Part shown: positions 3,137-19,444 of the stretch, piece by piece | Layout of the letters: each line of letters starts with the position of its first letter | Position numbering within the stretch: the stretch's first letter is position 1 | Virus record (IMG/VR): IMGVR_UViG_3300033155_001697 | Location: 1-34,371 of that record | Reading direction: 5' to 3' (one strand) | DNA length: 34,371 nucleotides | Origin: a virus | Made by a program: the position numbers and the translations under genes | Notes under the pieces: generated by a model | Told to the model about the DNA's origin: nothing | What the model saw: only the letters and a program-made list of their open reading frames with translations | The model's database searches: none

Positions 3137-3499
3137 ATGGCAGTACCGATGAACCACCAGGAGCTGATCCTGAACGCCGAGAAGGCGCTCGCGTGCGTCC
3201 TCTCGGAGGGGATGCGCGTCGACCTGCTGCTCGACAACGACGAGGCCCTGCGCAGCTCATTCGAAGCGCGGCTTGTCGTGCGCGGCCTGGTCGACCGGTG
3301 CGGGATTGCACCGTCACCTGACGAGGGATCTCAGGATCCGGCCGGCGTCGAGGCCGAGGTCAAGGCAGCGGAGTTCGCCGTGTTCGACAGCAGTTGCCGC
3401 GCATGCGACCGCCCATTCAGCGACGACGTGCGGCAAGCGCCGCGCGACGGTGACCAATGGCCAGTGTGCGTAGAGTGCGCCACGGGGGATACGCGATGA
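3137..3499 (+). CDS. Early phage protein with zinc-ribbon-like Cys pairs
   Basis: The 120-residue protein starts at ATG 3137 behind AGGGAGG, the best ribosome site in the region. The N-terminal half is helical (ELILNAEKALACVLSEG, LLLDNDEALRSSF). The C-terminal part has CRACDRPF and then CVECATG, a CxxC-x(n)-CxxC pattern typical of small zinc ribbons. I do not recognise a named family. It is the first gene after the putative early promoter and overlaps the next gene as ATGA, so it is probably expressed early and strongly. A DNA-binding or host-interaction role is possible but not shown. Confidence 0.7.
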   Translation: MAVPMNHQELILNAEKALACVLSEGMRVDLLLDNDEALRSSFEARLVVRGLVDRCGIAPSPDEGSQDPAGVEAEVKAAEFAVFDSSCRACDRPFSDDVRQAPRDGDQWPVCVECATGDTR

Positions 3500-3840
3500 G
3501 CCAGTTCCACCCCGAGAACTACTTCGAAGCGCTGGGCGCGCTGCAGGCGTCACGCGATCACGCCGCCGACGAGCGGTCTGTGGCCGACAAGTTCCGCGAC
3601 AAGATGGAGGGTCGCGCGAAGTTCCTCGAGAACACCGGCCGACACTGCAAGGAGACGGGCTGTGAGGATTGGGCCCAGTACCTGCGCGCAGCGATGGAGA
3701 TCTGGGAACTACTCGGAGTCCGCGCCGCGTGGATCGCTTGCCACCGCGAGCTCCCAGTGGGCTGCAACAGTTGCGGCCACCTGCGGGAGACCGAAAACGA
3801 GATCTGCGCGGGCTGCACCGCGCTCGAGGAGGCGTCATGA
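3496..3840 (+). CDS. Small early protein with C-terminal zinc-ribbon-like motif
   Basis: This 114-residue protein (start MSQFHPENYFEALGALQ) begins at an ATG that overlaps the previous stop as ATGA. The middle is a charged helical region (RSVADKFRDKMEGRAKF). The C-terminus has CNSCGHLRETENEICAGC, two CxxC pairs eleven residues apart, which would form a knuckle-type zinc ribbon. Two further Cys residues lie in HCKETGCEDW. The family is unknown. Together with the upstream gene it makes a pair of consecutive small Cys-pair proteins in the early operon. A longer in-frame version starting at 3457 is rejected because it lies inside the previous gene and lacks the usual junction. Confidence 0.68.
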   Translation: MSQFHPENYFEALGALQASRDHAADERSVADKFRDKMEGRAKFLENTGRHCKETGCEDWAQYLRAAMEIWELLGVRAAWIACHRELPVGCNSCGHLRETENEICAGCTALEEAS

Positions 3841-4025
3841 TCGAGTTCGTCCAGTCCAGCTGGCCCGTCATCTGCATTCTCGTCGGTGTCGGGTTCACCT
3901 GCGGTGGAGTCTTCGGCTACAAGCGCGGCTATCGGTCGGCAACTGCAGACCACTACAGCCCCGCCGCTCTGCAACAAAGCGCTGCAGATCTGGGCGCTAC
4001 GGATTCCCCCGACGGAAGTTCCTGA
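3837..4025 (+). CDS. Small single-pass membrane protein
   Basis: A 62-residue protein starts at ATG 3837 (ATGA overlap) with GAGGAGG five bases upstream. The N-terminal third is a transmembrane segment (SWPVICILVGVGFTCGGVFGY region, residues 8-28), followed by a basic KRGYR that would stay in the cytoplasm and a polar tail. No family is recognised. Its place after two small early genes suggests a host-modifying membrane peptide. Confidence 0.6.
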   Translation: MIEFVQSSWPVICILVGVGFTCGGVFGYKRGYRSATADHYSPAALQQSAADLGATDSPDGSS

Positions 4026-4068
4026 GGGGGAGTGGCCGGCACCCTAGTAGATGGGGTGATGTGCCGGC

Positions 4069-4121
4069 GGGGCGTCTCGAGCGTGCGGCGGTTTGGCGAT
4101 TGACGCTGCTCGAGGCGCCCC
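4069..4121. promoter_or_regulatory. Long inverted repeat upstream of the recombination genes
   Basis: Arms at 4069-4082 and 4108-4121 pair over 14 positions as RNA (one G-U pair) around a 25-base loop. Both arms contain CTCGAG. It lies in the 121-base gap between the small early genes and the exonuclease gene, 25 bases before its start. The bases after it (ATTCTCATTTCT) are only loosely T-rich, so it may be a partial terminator, an attenuator or a protein-binding site rather than a classical terminator. Confidence 0.55.
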
Positions 4122-4146
4122 ATTCTCATTTCTGGAGGTGACACTG

Positions 4147-5040
4147 ATGGCATACATTCCCGACGCGGCCGAGTGGCTCGCGCATTCCAACAGCCGGCAA
4201 GAGTGGCTGCAAGCTCGTCGCACCGGCATCGGTGCCAGCGAGATCGCGGGCGTCCTCGGCGCCGGCCGCTGGTGCTCGGCGCTCTCCGTCTACGCGGAGA
4301 AGGTCGACCCGTTCCCGCCCGAAGAGCACCAGGACCACGAGCGACTCCTGCTCGGTCAGCTCCTCGAGCCCGTGATCCTCGAGCGCTACGCGAAGGTGAC
4401 CGGCCGACCGACGAAGTCCTACGGGCACCTGCTCCGCTCGAAGCAGTGGCCATGGATGCTCGCCACGATGGACGGGCTGAGCGGCGACCTTAACGAGCCG
4501 GTGATCCCGGTCGAGTGCAAGAACACCCAGGATCGCACGGGCTGGTCGAACGGTCTGCCCCGCGACGTGTGGATGCAGGTGCAGCAGCAACTCGCGGTGG
4601 CGGACCTCCCCATGGGCGCTGTCGCGGTGCTGCTCGCCGGGTGTGAGTTCAAGACGATCGACGTCACGCGGGACCAGGAGTTCATCCACGACGTGTTGGT
4701 GCCGGCGGGCGAGGACTTCTGGACCAACGTCAAGCGCCGCGGTCCCCCGCCGCAGGCCGACGGGAGCGAGGCGTCGCGGGTGGCCGTCAACAAGATGTTC
4801 CCCGAGTGCGACGAGACGACGATCGTGTTGCCCGACGCATTCACCGAGTTCGGCGATGAGCTCGAGGCGATCAAGGAGCGCCAGGAGGTCGACAAGGCAC
4901 GGCGCGCGGAGATCGAGAACCAGGTGAAGCAGAACATCGGGAGCGCCACGTTCGGAACGGTTCCGGACGGTGGGGACTTCAGCTGGAAGGCCAACAAGAA
5001 CGGTGTGCGCACGCTGCGCTACCGCAAACCACAGGAGTAA
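4147..5040 (+). CDS. YqaJ-like viral recombinase (lambda-type exonuclease)
   Basis: The 297-residue protein has the YqaJ/lambda exonuclease PD-(D/E)xK fold. RTGIGASEIAGVLG (residues 25-38) is the glycine-serine opening motif, HERLLLGQLLEPVI holds the conserved Glu, ATMDGL has catalytic D109, VECKN has E123 and K125, and VWMQVQQQLAV provides the Gln of the final motif. These enzymes resect double-stranded ends 5' to 3' and hand the 3' single strand to an annealing partner; the RecT gene is next door, two bases away. The start at ATG 4147 follows GGAGGTGA. A longer frame from 4093 would overlap the hairpin and lacks a ribosome site. The C-terminus is charged (KERQEVDKARRAEIENQ) and may contact RecT. 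Confidence 0.9.
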   Translation: MAYIPDAAEWLAHSNSRQEWLQARRTGIGASEIAGVLGAGRWCSALSVYAEKVDPFPPEEHQDHERLLLGQLLEPVILERYAKVTGRPTKSYGHLLRSKQWPWMLATMDGLSGDLNEPVIPVECKNTQDRTGWSNGLPRDVWMQVQQQLAVADLPMGAVAVLLAGCEFKTIDVTRDQEFIHDVLVPAGEDFWTNVKRRGPPPQADGSEASRVAVNKMFPECDETTIVLPDAFTEFGDELEAIKERQEVDKARRAEIENQVKQNIGSATFGTVPDGGDFSWKANKNGVRTLRYRKPQE

Positions 5041-5042
5041 AC

Positions 5043-5927
5043 ATGGATCAATCGAATGCACTGCTGTCCCCAGCCCAGCGGATGGACGCGGCCAAGAAGT
5101 GGCTGCTCGGTCCCGAGATGCAACAGAACATTGCTCGAGCGCTGCCGCGTCACATCTCCGCGGAGCGTGTCGCGCAGCTCTTCTTCGTCGAGGCGCGCAA
5201 GACGCCGCGCCTTCTCGAGTGCACGGGCGAGAGCCTGCTCGGCGCCGTGATGGAGGTCTCGAAGCTGGGCCTCGAGCTCGGCACGCTGGGCCACGCTTGG
5301 ATCCTTCCCTTCAAGGTGAAGGGCAAGCTCACCGCGACGGTGATCATCGGCTACAAGGGCATGCTGGCCCTCGCCTGGCGGTCGGACAAGATCTCGAACG
5401 TCTACGGGCACGTCGTCCGGGACGGTGACTTCTTCGAGTACACGTTCGGCAGCGACCCGGTCATCCGCCACACTCCGGCCGATTTCCCTGACCGGGGGAG
5501 GCCTACCCACGCCTACGCGGGGTGCACCACCGTGACCGGCGGACAGATCCTCGAGGTGATGGCCATCGAGGAGTGCGAGAAGGTTCGCTCGCGCTCCCGG
5601 TCGGGGAGCAAGGGTCCGTGGGTCGACGATTACGACGCGATGTGCGTCAAGACCGCGATGCGCCGCGCGCTGAAGCTGGCGCCCTGCAGCACTGAGCTCG
5701 CGCGTGCGATCACGGTCGACGAGGCGCAGGACGCTCGAGTCGATCAGCACCTGGAGGCGTCGCTCGAGCCGATTCCGGCCGCAGGCGACGGCGACGGAGA
5801 CGCACCGTACCATGCGTGCGAGCAGTGCCGGGCCGAGATCGACACTGACGACGAGCACTACCGGTACGAGAGCAACGACGGCGAGGCATTCCGCTGCGCC
5901 GAGTGCGGGAAGAGGGAGGATTCATGA
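5043..5927 (+). CDS. recT: RecT-family single-strand annealing protein with C-terminal zinc ribbon
   Basis: The 294-residue protein matches the RecT family: a conserved core with GAVMEVSKLGLELG, HAWILPFKVKGK, ATVIIGYKGMLALAWRS, and near the end of the core DDYDAMCVKTAMRRALK. It anneals complementary single strands and works with the exonuclease encoded just before it (start two bases after the stop, with AGGAGT upstream). Unusually, after an acidic linker the last 36 residues hold CEQC (259-262) and CAEC (285-288), which would make a zinc ribbon not part of the standard RecT core. The ribbon resembles the Cys-pair tails of the small early proteins at 3137 and 3496. It may bind DNA or a partner. 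Confidence 0.92.
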   Translation: MDQSNALLSPAQRMDAAKKWLLGPEMQQNIARALPRHISAERVAQLFFVEARKTPRLLECTGESLLGAVMEVSKLGLELGTLGHAWILPFKVKGKLTATVIIGYKGMLALAWRSDKISNVYGHVVRDGDFFEYTFGSDPVIRHTPADFPDRGRPTHAYAGCTTVTGGQILEVMAIEECEKVRSRSRSGSKGPWVDDYDAMCVKTAMRRALKLAPCSTELARAITVDEAQDARVDQHLEASLEPIPAAGDGDGDAPYHACEQCRAEIDTDDEHYRYESNDGEAFRCAECGKREDS

Positions 5928-6328
5928 AGACGCGCGACATCATCCTGGCAGCAATCGGCGGCGCGATCGTGCTCGCCGTGATCATCTTCGGCTTCGTCGA
6001 GTTCGCGGGCGCGCAGGAGCCGCACCCCGACATCGACCTCGCCCGGCAGGGATCGACCTACCCGTTCCACTGCCAGCCCGTTGAGCCAATCGACAAGATG
6101 GTTCAGATCTGTGCGGTGCGAACCGATCAGGTCGAGCCGGTCGAGCTCGGTTGCGTTGATCACTCGACGATCGACACCGCCACGATCACCATCAGTGTGG
6201 ACAGGACGCCTCACGAAGACGGGAAGATCCGCTGCTATGCGATCGACTCAGAGGGGAACGTCTCGGACATCTCAGACAACGCCGGCGTCGCGGACTTCAC
6301 TCCGAACGGCAAGCCGCACGTCAAGTGA
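5924..6328 (+). CDS. Exported or membrane-anchored Ig-like protein
   Basis: This 134-residue protein starts at ATG 5924, which overlaps the RecT stop as ATGA and is preceded by GAGGGAGG. The N-terminus is a signal peptide or anchor (residues 6-31, IILAAIGGAIVLAVIIFGF, then AGAQ as a possible cleavage site). The remainder is beta-rich with two Cys pairs likely (FHCQP, QICAV, LGCVD, IRCYA), and the ending CYAIDSEGNVSDIS resembles an Ig- or fibronectin-like domain. It is in the early operon, not the structural one, so a role at the cell envelope such as superinfection exclusion is possible. That is inference; no family is recognised. Confidence 0.65.
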   Translation: MKTRDIILAAIGGAIVLAVIIFGFVEFAGAQEPHPDIDLARQGSTYPFHCQPVEPIDKMVQICAVRTDQVEPVELGCVDHSTIDTATITISVDRTPHEDGKIRCYAIDSEGNVSDISDNAGVADFTPNGKPHVK

Positions 6329-12500: not shown

Positions 12501-13716
12501 TCGACTCCCCGGCGATGAGGTAGTGCGTCGCCGATGTGGTGACCTGAACGTCCGATCCGTTCTGCAGGATGGACGACCAGGTGCTGCCCGGCGACACATT
12601 ATCGGAGGGGATGTACGCGCCGTTCTGGTCTCCACTCCCCTCGACGATGATCTCCTGGCCGGCGCTGTCCGTTGGCAGCTGGGCAGCGTGGGCGCAGACG
12701 TCGAGGCCGGCGCAGAGCCGGAAGGATGAGATGGCGACCTGCGAGCTCGTCAGCCCGTGCGTCTCTGCGGTTGTCGCCCGGATGATGTCGTTCGACGGCT
12801 CGGCAAACAGCGTGATGGAGTATGGGGTATCCGTAACCTGGAGCTGCCCGTTCACGATCACGTCGTCGGGAAATGTGTAGATGTCGTGGTGTGGGCTGCC
12901 GGCGTGATCGTTTGCAACCGTCGGGTCTCCGATGGTCCCGCCAAGCTCCCCATCGAGAGCTCGTCCCTCGAGGGTCTCAGGCGAGATCGTCATCTGGTTT
13001 TCCGTTCCAGCATCGACCTCCAGCTGCGTCGCCTTGCGCAATGTCCCGCGCTTCGTTTCGGTAGCGAGCTCGATCTTGGAACCGTCGATGTTGGCAGACG
13101 GGGCGACATCGCTGTTCATGATGCTCTGATAGATGTACTCAGGGAAGATCTCGCCAGCCGCGCCGCAGGCGATGATCGGCGACAAGGGACCGTCGCAGAG
13201 GGTCAGCTTGATGTCGTCCGAATCGAGGAAATCAGGGTCGGTGGCTTCAACCCCGTTCACCTTGATCGAACTCAGCCAAGGCCCAGGGAAAGTCGGCACC
13301 CATGCAGATCCGTCGAAGGTCTGGTTGTCGACGCCGTTGCACTGGACGGAAACCGTGCCGCCGCCGGACGACGACGTGATCCTGACCATTACCCAGTTGC
13401 GGGAGAAGTTGATCTCCCACGTTCCAGGATCCGATGTCGATACAACCTGGACGCACCGTGACGTGTCGGAGTCGCTCTCGTCGCAGTCGTACACCTGCAC
13501 GCCAGCAGGGCCTCCGGCGATGACCACCGTTGACCGTTCCACGCACGCAGAGATGTCCTGATGCGGGCTCGGCGAGTAGCCGTCGACCGTCCATGTGTAG
13601 GTGAAGGCCTGGTTGTAGAGCGCCTGGCCGTACTCGTCCGGAACTCCGTCGGCCCACGGCTGCGCGCTCGCTGGGAGCGCGAAGAGGATCGCGGCCAGCA
13701 GCAGCAGTCGACGCAT
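9502..13716 (-). CDS. Large fibre-like protein with signal peptide
   Basis: The 1404-residue protein begins with a textbook Sec signal peptide ([15 protein letters not shown], cleavage near residue 18). The rest is beta-rich. Residues about 300-510 hold repeats of the type ATTAETHGL / TSATHYL / [18 protein letters not shown]. Residues about 520-940 carry three longer repeats that begin DTTPDV, DDTPNV or DTEPDV and end with a Cys pair ([28 protein letters not shown]) and a W.Y....W.L strand. These resemble units of phage tail fibres. The last 110 residues ([17 protein letters not shown] to ICFHP) resemble a C-terminal beta-sandwich tip domain. It follows the tail-collar gene (TAATG overlap), the usual place for a receptor-binding protein. 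The signal peptide and many paired Cys are odd for a virion protein assembled in the cytoplasm. Confidence 0.75.
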
Positions 13717-14807
13717 TAGGCGACGCCAGTGTAGATGACGTATCCCATCACGATGTGCGGCTGGCGCAGGTCGAGCAGGTTGTTGGCCGCATCGCCCTGC
13801 GCGATGAAGTCGTGGTCATGGTCTCCAGCGGGCTGGACCAGATCCTCACTAGCAGGATCGGTCGGAGCGCCGACGCCCTGACCGTAGGAACTATTGACGC
13901 TGCCCTGTATGGTGGGGTTGTCCCCGTCAGCCGGGTGGACATGGGTTCCGCTCGTGACGTGTTCATGGTCATGAAGCGGCATCTCGGCCTCGAGAATCTC
14001 GTGAGTCTTCTCGCCGCCCCAGGCCTTGTCTCGCTTCTCCTCGATGTCGAGCCCGTTGGTGTAGTCGTAGTCGTCGTCCGGCTCCGATGCGACGCCGGCC
14101 GGGTGCGTGGCGTCATCCCAGAATCCGACAGGGACACGGCCCGCCATGTCCGGGACGCGCACGCTACCGATGGTCGGGAGACCGAGCGACGGGTGGTAGT
14201 CGTAGTGCCCGATTTGAGTGCCGAGCGGCGAGCCGAGCACCTCCGCCAGCACGGGGTAGTCAGCGATAAGCACCTCTTGGCCATTGCACTCGAGCCACCC
14301 CTCCGCGGCTGCTGCTGACTGCAGGCCCGCGGTCATCTTCATGTCGCCCACCGCCGGCTGGGAAGCGAACGCGCTCGGGTCGATCGACTTGGCGAAGTAG
14401 ACATCGGCGCCGTCGGTGTCCATCGTCGCCGGCACGTTGGTGCCGACGATTTCGACATCGGTGTGCGTCCCACCGAAGCTCGAGGACTTGACGGTGGCCT
14501 CCACTGCAGTGATGCCGTTGCGGAGCCGAACGCGCCGGCCCGTGGTGAAGTAGTCGGTCGCGTCGCAGTCCTGGACCTGGAAGGCGCTGGCGTTCAGCTG
14601 CACGACCGGCTTCGGGTTGCGAGTCGCGAGGTCCTCGGTGACCGACAGCCACTCGGGGTCGTCGTACCAGGTACGAATCACCGTCATGATCTCGCGGCCC
14701 CACCAGTTGATGTCTCCGCCGAACCATCCTTCCGGAGCTCCGTCAGGGACGGCGAAGCCGTTGGTGGAATGAGTGAGGGACCATTGTCCAAGAATAAGTG
14801 ACGGCAT
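13716..14807 (-). CDS. Tail collar-domain fibre protein
   Basis: The 363-residue protein has a phage tail collar domain: GWLECNGQEVLIADYPVL (about residues 170-187), RVPDMAGRVPVGF, then the histidine-rich MPLHDHEHVTSGTHVH and the end LRQPHIVMGYVIYTG. This pattern is typical of short tail fibres such as T4 gp12 and of microcystin-dependent-protein-like phage fibres, where the His residues can bind metal. The first 160 residues would attach to the virion (EWLSVTEDLATRN and a beta domain VRLRNGITAVEATV). The start ATG follows GGAGGCGAC and overlaps the previous stop (TGATG). Confidence 0.88.
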   Translation of the reverse strand: MPSLILGQWSLTHSTNGFAVPDGAPEGWFGGDINWWGREIMTVIRTWYDDPEWLSVTEDLATRNPKPVVQLNASAFQVQDCDATDYFTTGRRVRLRNGITAVEATVKSSSFGGTHTDVEIVGTNVPATMDTDGADVYFAKSIDPSAFASQPAVGDMKMTAGLQSAAAAEGWLECNGQEVLIADYPVLAEVLGSPLGTQIGHYDYHPSLGLPTIGSVRVPDMAGRVPVGFWDDATHPAGVASEPDDDYDYTNGLDIEEKRDKAWGGEKTHEILEAEMPLHDHEHVTSGTHVHPADGDNPTIQGSVNSSYGQGVGAPTDPASEDLVQPAGDHDHDFIAQGDAANNLLDLRQPHIVMGYVIYTGVA

Positions 14808-16537: not shown

Positions 16538-17764
16538 TTACTCCGGAACCCGCTCGATCGTCCAGCCGCCTGTGGTGGCCGGGGCAGGGGGGGCAGAACC
16601 ATTTGCCCCACTTGCGCCGCGGGGACCTCGAGCTCCGAAGCGTGCCTCCCAGGCTGCGCTCGCCTTGTCCTTCTGGCTCGCCGGCACCTGGCTGAGATAC
16701 GCGCGACGGCCCTTCCGGAACCAGGTGTCGAGCTTGACCTGCGCCGTGTCGCTGATCTTGCCGCCGCGGATGAGCTCGGTGTAATTGGGGAAGGTCGTGA
16801 GCAGGAACGCGCGCTCGGTCTCGTTGACCTGCGCTCCCGATGTCGCCTTCAGGAACTCGGCGACCGCGATCGTCTTCAGTTGCTCGTAGGCCTCGAAGCC
16901 CACATTGCCGGCACCCGTTGCGAGCCGGTCGGCCTTGTTCATCCCGGTCTGCAGGATGTTGGTGTCGCCCTGGCTGGCGATGTCTCGAGCGACCTGCTCG
17001 AGGTCAGCGAACGTGCCCTGGAACGCGACGGCCGCAGCCATCTGCTCCCGGACCTTCGCACTGCCGCGCACGACGATTCCAAGCCCTGGCTCCCGGAAGG
17101 CCTTCCCGTTGATCACGTCTCGAGCGAGCGGTTCGTCGCCGAGCTCGAAGACGAGCTCGTTGTACTGGTTGTCCTGGCTGGCCGCGGTCCTCTCGTCCAG
17201 GCGTCCGCCTTCTGTGAAACTCACCAGCGGCGGCGGCGGCGGGACCGGCATCTCGTTCCCGGTCATCGGTTGCAGCCCGAGCGCCTGGTCGCGTGATCCA
17301 TAGGTCGCTCCATCCTTGCTAAGAATCTTGACCGGCGCGTACTCGGTCGGGTTGTAGCCACCGGCGGCGGGATACATCTCGCCGAAGATCGCGCTCGCCT
17401 TCTCCGCGTACTCGAATGCGCCCTGGCCCATCAGGTACTGGATCGCCGCCTGGCGCTGGTTCGGGTCGCTCATGTCGGAGAAGTTCTCCTGCATGTGCGC
17501 CATGATCCCCTGCTGTCGTCGGGTGTGCTCCGTCTGCGCGGCCATCTGCATTTTGCGCATCTCTTGTTCGACGCCCTGCTGTCGCAGCTGCGCGAGCGCG
17601 TGAGGGCCTGCCCACGGATTCTGCGCGGCACCCGAGACGCCGGCCGCGTAGGCCGCGCCGCCGAGTACACCAGCCAGTGACTTCATGACGCTGAGCGCCT
17701 TCTGGCCTCCGGTGAGCTCCTCTTCTTCTTCCTGCGGTTGCGGCGGGATCATTCCGAACGACAT
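16538..17764 (-). CDS. Putative internal virion or ejection protein
   Basis: The 408-residue protein starts at ATG 17764 (MSFGMIPPQPQEEEEE), overlapping the upstream stop as TGATG; longer in-frame readings lie inside the previous gene. It has an acidic N-terminus, a Gly/Ala-rich hydrophobic helix (MKSLAGVLGGAAYAAGVSGA), a Gln/Met-rich helical region (QQGVEQEMRKMQMAAQTEH), and a C-terminal helical segment KATSGAQVNETERAFLLTTF, a motif type that recurs in internal or DNA-ejection proteins of many phages. Together with its two neighbours it makes a set of three helical proteins, as in P22-like (gp7/16/20) or T7-like (gp14/15/16) ejection modules. Confidence 0.5.
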   Translation of the reverse strand: MSFGMIPPQPQEEEEELTGGQKALSVMKSLAGVLGGAAYAAGVSGAAQNPWAGPHALAQLRQQGVEQEMRKMQMAAQTEHTRRQQGIMAHMQENFSDMSDPNQRQAAIQYLMGQGAFEYAEKASAIFGEMYPAAGGYNPTEYAPVKILSKDGATYGSRDQALGLQPMTGNEMPVPPPPPLVSFTEGGRLDERTAASQDNQYNELVFELGDEPLARDVINGKAFREPGLGIVVRGSAKVREQMAAAVAFQGTFADLEQVARDIASQGDTNILQTGMNKADRLATGAGNVGFEAYEQLKTIAVAEFLKATSGAQVNETERAFLLTTFPNYTELIRGGKISDTAQVKLDTWFRKGRRAYLSQVPASQKDKASAAWEARFGARGPRGASGANGSAPPAPATTGGWTIERVPE

Positions 17765-18519: not shown

Positions 18520-19013
18520 CAGGCCTCCTCCTCCTGGTCAAGGTCGATCGCGTAGAATGTCGCGATCTCTTCCGCTCCAGGGATGAACCGCTTCCAACCT
18601 CGGCGGCCGGTGATTTCCAGCTGATTGAATCCCTTCTTCTTCGCGACGTGCTGCATCGCCGGCCACATCTTCTCGGCCCATAGGTGGATGTGCGCGCCGC
18701 CACAGAGACCGAGACTCATCACTCGCCGCTTCGGGTAGACGCGCGCTTCCGCGATGATCACCGCATAGATGCGAGACGCGGGCGGATCCCAGATCAACAT
18801 GACTTCAGCCATGCCGTCAGTGATCGCCTGCAGCGTGTCCTCGGGCCCGAGTCGTCCAGCCGATCGCTCGAAGACCTGGTCGAGATAGGGGACGATGGTC
18901 TCCCACCCGTCGACAGCCTGCTGCGTCGTCAGCACCGTCAACTTGATCTGGTCCGTGTCGATGATCGGGACGACACTCTCGGCGCCTTGTAGTGTCACCT
19001 GGTCCATGCTCAT
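18519..19013 (-). CDS. GNAT-like protein in the tail cluster
   Basis: The 164-residue protein has an acyl-CoA N-acyltransferase-like layout: MLIWDPPASRIYAVIIAEAR as the central strands, MSLGLCGGAHIHLWAEKM as a loop and helix at the place of the acetyl-CoA site, and HVAKKKGFNQLEITGRRGW, where a helix leads into the strand and ends in GRRGW. Related GNAT-like proteins lie between neck and tail genes in many podoviruses, and their role is unknown. The canonical Q/RxxGxG/A motif is not obvious, so enzymatic activity is uncertain. ATG 19013 overlaps the previous stop as ATGA; a start at 19031 is possible. Confidence 0.6.
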   Translation of the reverse strand: MSMDQVTLQGAESVVPIIDTDQIKLTVLTTQQAVDGWETIVPYLDQVFERSAGRLGPEDTLQAITDGMAEVMLIWDPPASRIYAVIIAEARVYPKRRVMSLGLCGGAHIHLWAEKMWPAMQHVAKKKGFNQLEITGRRGWKRFIPGAEEIATFYAIDLDQEEEA

Positions 19014-19444
19014 CCTGCGATTCTCCTCCACTTCTCGGTGACGCTGTCGTACCAGAGCTCCGTAGACCGCCCGGCGGCCATCGAGTGGTCCGCGACGATC
19101 GAGAACTGGTTCACTGCGAGCGATGTCGTCTCGTGCTTCAGCGTGATCGTGAACGCTGACACATTGATCAGAAGCAACCGTCGACCTGGACCGGCCTCGA
19201 TTCCGGTGAGGTTGTATGCGCCGTCGGAGTCGATGCGGACAATCGAGTATCCGCCGAAGTCGGCGTCGTCCGTGTTGGCCGTCATCGCGTGCTCGAGGTG
19301 CGAGAAGCTCACCATCTCGGTCAGTTCGTTGCCGTCACGCGACACGGGTCCGGTCGTGAGATAGTCGACGATCATCCGAAGATGCTCCTCGATGTTGCCC
19401 AGGTAGAATGCGGGCGGCTTCTGAGCTCCGACGACTCGACTCAT
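19010..19444 (-). CDS. Small beta-rich tail or neck protein
   Basis: A 144-residue protein. After a helical N-terminus (NIEEHLRMIVDYLTTG) it has the fibre-like beta module RRLLLINVSAFTITLKHETT and then ELWYDSVTEKWRRI, a pattern common in tail fibre and appendage proteins (an L.LINV.....TL..... strand pair followed by a W strand). It overlaps both neighbours by ATGA junctions. A tail-appendage or adaptor role is likely; the family is not identified. Confidence 0.55.
   Translation of the reverse strand: MSRVVGAQKPPAFYLGNIEEHLRMIVDYLTTGPVSRDGNELTEMVSFSHLEHAMTANTDDADFGGYSIVRIDSDGAYNLTGIEAGPGRRLLLINVSAFTITLKHETTSLAVNQFSIVADHSMAAGRSTELWYDSVTEKWRRIAG

Follow-up and report, generated by a model that had tools for sequence, protein, structure and literature searches.

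What does a RecT-family annealase do with four paired cysteines at its C-terminal end, and could that end bear on the partner with which the annealase works? RecT-type annealases are the workhorses of bacterial genome engineering. According to the available parts of two papers, the C-terminus probably accounts for some of their specificity for partner and host (PMC9772228, PMC5052646). The locus lies in a virus record of 34,371 bases, analysed at its full length and called the window here, which carries portal and terminase genes like those of tailed phages. A compact block on the plus strand (3137-6328) encodes small double-CxxC proteins and a probable membrane protein, followed by a YqaJ exonuclease, by RecT and by a 134-aa protein. 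Its features are given below, with RecT divided into its three parts; the sister phage is IMG/VR record IMGVR_UViG_3300033153_007667.

3137..3499 (+), 120-aa small protein with the end CxxC-x20-CxxC; no Pfam family
3496..3840 (+), 114-aa small protein with the end CxxC-x10-CxxC; no Pfam family
3837..4025 (+), 62-aa probable membrane protein (hydrophobic stretch by eye; 48% in the sister phage)
4147..5040 (+), YqaJ-family exonuclease, likely partner nuclease (PF09588; PHROG 434, RecE-like)
5043..5723 (+), RecT annealase core, residues 1-227 (PF03837 and TIGR00616, structure model, Foldseek)
5724..5813 (+), acidic linker of net charge -6, poorly conserved, residues 228-257
5814..5924 (+), C-terminal four-Cys tail, putative zinc-binding module, residues 258-294, net charge -7
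5924..6328 (+), 134-aa protein, no Pfam family; its ATG overlaps the recT stop (ATGA)

The RecT core and the neighbouring genes

The recT gene (5043-5927, +) encodes a product of 294 aa, the sequence of which ends in ...AGDGDGDAPYHACEQCRAEIDTDDEHYRYESNDGEAFRCAECGKREDS. Residues 43-232 matched PF03837 (RecT) at 129.9 bits against a cut-off of 24, and residues 11-227 matched TIGR00616 at 175.5 bits against a cut-off of 52.65; the score against NF007351, the equivalog model for E. coli RecT, stayed below its cut-off (228.9 versus 296). AlphaFold gave the core pLDDT values mostly above 90, and a Foldseek comparison matched this core to the RecT of Listeria phage A118 (7ub2, E 2.2e-9, TMt 0.76). 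The 5043-5927 protein is a RecT-family annealase, the annealing activity itself being predicted. The arrangement given for it in the preliminary description, a RecT core followed by an acidic linker and a CxxC-x22-CxxC tail, was borne out, as was the observation that two small proteins of the same operon have double-CxxC ends.

The product of the gene just upstream matched PF09588 at 74.3 bits (cut-off 22) and is 52% identical in the sister phage; a YqaJ-type 5'-3' exonuclease beside recT is common in the family, though membership does not depend on it. No sister-phage counterpart was detected for the 3137-3499 or the 3496-3840 protein. Small double-CxxC frames were seen in the sister phage at 450-743 and 719-955 of locus L171, upstream of its exonuclease and RecT genes, and no sequence relation was detected between these and the window's small Cys proteins; both phages thus have small cysteine proteins in an early operon, a common theme with no common sequence. 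The relative of the 134-aa protein in the sister record (41%, 13157-13729, minus) is encoded on the other strand, which marks an inversion or rearrangement at this place. Long TPTATPT-type repeats were also observed in a minus-strand frame of each phage (window 8447-9505; sister locus L171 6116-6847).

The linker and the four-cysteine tail

The tail cysteines are C259, C262, C285 and C288. When the whole protein with its nine Cys was shuffled 20,000 times, CxxC-x(8-32)-CxxC fell within the last 66 residues 8 times. Among the stop-to-stop frames of at least 60 aa in the window, 5 of 323 had a double-CxxC pattern: RecT, the 3137 and 3496 proteins, and two frames (17358-17600 and 18965-19156, both plus) that oppose minus-strand frames matching the sister phage.

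In the AlphaFold model of full-length RecT the last helix stops at residue 230 and confidence drops beyond it, with pLDDT of 35-43 by ten-residue block over residues 251-294; the tail modelled alone reached a mean pLDDT of 57.6. Most of the weak Pfam matches of the tail were to DUFs or to families of zinc fingers and zinc ribbons, and none passed its cut-off; the best were zf-H2C2_2 (E 0.0017, 19 bits, cut-off 40) and DUF7837 (E 0.0021, 18.5 bits, cut-off 27.8). The best PDB profile matches comprised an 11-residue stretch at a single knuckle, yRCaECGk. The two CxxC knuckles are at a spacing plausible for a zinc ribbon or treble clef, and are kept in one full-length homologue only. Zn(II) is probably bound by this four-cysteine module. 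The preliminary description had called it a zinc ribbon, a plausible label for which the weak zinc-family matches speak and to which neither a match over cut-off nor a confident fold could be added; given the low-confidence model of the tail, the label stays sequence-based.

The same tail in a sister phage

Among the matches listed, the closest homologue was the RecT of the sister phage (locus L171), 48% identical over residues 1-292. By region, the core was identical at 125/227 positions, the linker at 4/30 and the tail at 18/37, which makes the tail almost as well conserved as the core. All four tail Cys are kept, with a spacer of x28 compared to x22 in the window, and the two tails have CEQC, EI, DD, YRY and RCxECGxRE in common; E265, I266, Y273, R274, Y275, G289, R291 and E292 are conserved besides the cysteines. 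Tail and linker of the sister RecT each carry a net charge of -6. Over most of the window the sister phage has the same gene order, at differing identities (portal 76%, terminase 81%, RecT 48%, YqaJ 52%), and since phages that are collinear and yet divergent both have the tail, the tail survived long divergence. Linker identity is nearly gone while tail identity is kept at about 50% overall, which suggests purifying selection on the tail. On the basis of this one relative, the tail is conserved within the phage lineage and the linker is not.

An idiosyncratic tail, due to chance or artefact, was ruled out by this full-length homologue; two CxxC had been found in none of the 145 other distinct tails before it, a result that by itself would have pointed the other way. 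The next homologues listed, little farther off by local identity, were L173 (46%, residues 27-257), L097 (46%, 9-228), L309 (46%, 26-228) and L010 (44%, 1-245), and the tail cysteines are absent from all four. The preliminary description had held that close homologues without the four Cys would show the tail not to be conserved; relatives of the core at up to 46% identity do lack them, whereas the closest, at 48% and full length, retains them. The tail is lineage-specific, but conserved in that lineage.

Rarity of the tail

RecT loci were drawn from IMG/VR, GTDB genomes, annotated phages and five genome groups. The numbers of genomes with a PF03837 match at E 0.001 in the five groups were 18/385, 14/367, 35/381, 8/386 and 10/386, and in the third group (35/381) loci were obtained for part of the matches. 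A first census gave at least 331 RecT ORFs with 200 distinct tails, of which 10 had any Cys, 6 had two or more, and 2, those of the window and the sister phage, had two CxxC. In a wider census at least 385 loci matched the RecT profile; 26 ORFs of partial profile coverage were dropped and the remaining 359 ORFs formed 106 clusters. The tail of the window and sister RecTs (type A) was present in 2/106 of the clusters collected, a count that holds for what the scans could show, since the locus sets were the best 80 loci per scan, with many loci repeating one contig and near-window records possibly absent. Tails with at least three Cys were present in 5/106 clusters (types A, B and C). Among 32 further loci with a RecT outside the profile, only L354 has four Cys in the last 80 residues, its RecT-like ORF bearing yet another four-Cys tail. 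Its retention in a collinear phage and its absence from nearly all other RecTs collected support the first proposal, that the tail is a real added module.

The search for RecT homologues with the same tail, proposed at the outset, yielded the sister RecT; a DNA motif scan of IMG/VR (CEQC, a spacer of 21-31, CxECG) gave no further RecT with the tail. Because CEQC and some codons are fixed in this pattern, variants escape the scan. It returned 12 stretches, and the protein-level pattern was present in 10, namely the sister RecT and nine other frames. A terminase scan gave four contigs of the lineage besides the sister, and no RecT match was obtained in these fragments (0/4; 7.6-25 kb). Two of the four, the IMG/VR contigs L433 and L434, have a terminase 100% identical to that of the window; this phage, or one very close to it, has probably been sampled elsewhere too. 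The YqaJ scan returned the sister phage and one 23% match, and nothing more.

Other four-cysteine tails and the RecT tree

The other tails were of differing kinds. Type B (L282, L283, L287) is a conserved module, CxxC-x19-CC (AVCRSCG...LVCCE). Type C has the pattern C-x12-CxxC-x5-C in L157 (RecT locus 621-1985) and C-x11-CxxC-x5-C in L338 (128-1252, minus strand); the sources are a Desulfobacterales MAG and another genome of the same phylum. The RecT cores, without tails, were placed in a quick tree of 73 rows. Type A rows grouped at an SH-aLRT of 97 and type B rows grouped separately, also at 97; the two type C rows were non-adjacent within a weakly supported 11-row group, and a single type C origin followed by losses may account for them. 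The nearest tailless relative of type A was L010 (support 84). Four label changes were needed in all, with 27/69 forks open, and the number of tail gains is approximate because so many forks are weak. The presence of other four-Cys tail types in three further clusters indicates that four-Cys tails on RecT probably arose more than once. In the titles and abstract openings of mainly open-access papers we found neither a zinc tail on RecT nor a description of several different four-Cys modules on RecT C-termini.

Candidate sources of the tail

The tail was compared, as had been suggested beforehand, with the C-termini of the small proteins at 3137 and 3496; only the Cys pairs were in common, and common ancestry of the three ends found no support (p 0.23 and 0.52 with Cys fixed). 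Three phage matches seemed to span the tail (Mycobacterium phage Sejanus, Proteus phage Pm34 and Xavia). Sejanus was rejected as a tail homologue, having no cysteines in that region, and Pm34 likewise, the match crossing the RecT stop and continuing in a small ORF distinct from recT. This Pm34 ORF (L003, 3781-3978) encodes a small CxxC-x22-CxxC protein in frame directly after the recT stop, with the spacing of the window tail. It beat Cys-fixed shuffles against the window tail (p 0.014, one of 8 comparisons for that tail) and did not reach p 0.05 against the sister tail; with 8 comparisons, a p of 0.010 for the L338 tail and the null result for the sister tail, we make no claim of homology for the Pm34 ORF.

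An origin from a fused neighbouring small zinc gene was likewise unsupported, there being no excess of double-CxxC ORFs downstream of recT. Such an ORF was present in the 600 bases after recT in 5/102 loci, in 14/337 random background windows, and in 8/74 windows of 600 bases more than 1.5 kb upstream of recT. The tail alone, searched against 50,697 phage records, had a best E of 0.8 (a Vibrio phage protein), and neither this search nor the IMG/VR motif scan revealed a homologous free-standing gene.

Role of the tail

We tentatively propose, at slightly less than an even chance, that the C-terminal partner-binding segment of RecT has been replaced in this phage lineage by a linker and a Zn knuckle that docks YqaJ or a host factor. 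YqaJ, a 5'-3' exonuclease encoded just upstream, would work with RecT, the core of which would bind and anneal ssDNA. The tail, on its flexible acidic linker, would project from the RecT filament and dock onto YqaJ, by which RecT would be loaded on the new 3' overhang; alternatively, docking to a host replication protein such as SSB would bring RecT to the fork.

The preliminary description had named DNA as a further partner, along with the exonuclease and a host replication factor. Zinc ribbons and zinc fingers are frequent nucleic-acid binders, and the weak Pfam and PDB profile matches of the tail include C2H2 fingers; both points favour a rival reading, in which the tail is a zinc ribbon that binds DNA and so tethers the annealase. 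A C-terminal helix-turn-helix domain common to SSAPs of different families, perhaps spread by domain shuffling, is described as DNA-binding in the part of that work available (PMC8093625). Against this, the tail has a net charge of -7 in the window and -6 in the sister phage, following a linker of -6 in both, which fits a protein rather than a DNA contact, and the best PDB matches are confined to one knuckle. We regard the DNA tether as unlikely and favour over it a module that is stabilised by metal and docks a protein, either YqaJ or a host factor.

Further removed is a tail with no partner, a lineage accident that merely stabilises the C-terminus or is kept by drift: two sequences with the tail are known and RecT C-termini are highly variable in length and sequence, but nearly all linker identity between the two phages is gone and that of the tail is not, and we give this explanation little weight. 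Redox sites and rubredoxin-like sites can likewise contain CxxC pairs, and the four cysteines could work as a switch, redox or metal (disulfide or Fe), controlling filament formation and taking no part in docking; the conserved non-Cys residues of the tail suggest a binding surface instead, and a switch appears to us a shade less probable still. That a sequencing or frame artefact fused two ORFs is scarcely credible, with nothing seen in its favour, and is contradicted by the identical architecture in an independent contig, by the GC3 (0.89 in the core, 0.82 across linker and tail) and by the overlap of the recT stop with the next start.

The docking module that we favour would, being a compact Cys module kept while its linker drifts, provide a defined part for testing partner choice. 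Other four-Cys tails, on a few RecTs from phages and bacterial genomes, make the C-terminal end look like a swappable docking part, and the different Cys tails would fit such a port. A broader version, in which the RecT C-terminus is a general docking port repeatedly plugged with unrelated, partner-specific metal-binding modules (three kinds), is possible, and we are rather doubtful of it; if true, each plugged module would fit RecT to one partner of its own, an exonuclease or a host replication protein.

Comparison with known systems

The sister RecT is like the window RecT in its architecture, including CEQC...CxECGxRE, and in its YqaJ and small membrane protein neighbours; it differs in the wider spacing of its Cys pairs and in one extra Cys, and the small Cys proteins upstream differ between the two phages. 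The type B and type C RecTs resemble the window RecT in the core and in having a short four-Cys C-terminal module, whereas their Cys spacing, sequence and places in the tree are different, from which separate acquisitions are probable.

Lambda Redbeta is of the same superfamily as the window RecT, with a weak fold match (7ujl, E 7.9e-4). The C-terminal domain of Redbeta is helical and is not known to have cysteine pairs. According to the available part of one paper, this domain is dispensable for annealing and needed for recombination, its role being partly Red-alpha binding and perhaps involving a host factor (PMC5052646), and contacts of the region with Red-alpha and host SSB are described in the parts at hand of two papers (PMC5052646, PMC9772228). 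The RecT of phage A118 (LiRecT) is like the window RecT in its annealing core and fold. Its residues 225-271 are unmodelled and, according to the portion of the paper available, likely fold into a small helical domain that serves partners, SSB among them (PMC9772228); the window RecT has its linker and four-Cys tail there. The tail thus occupies the place of the RecT/Redbeta partner-binding segment, with no helix modelled past residue 230, and is a new, rare C-terminal variant on an ordinary RecT.
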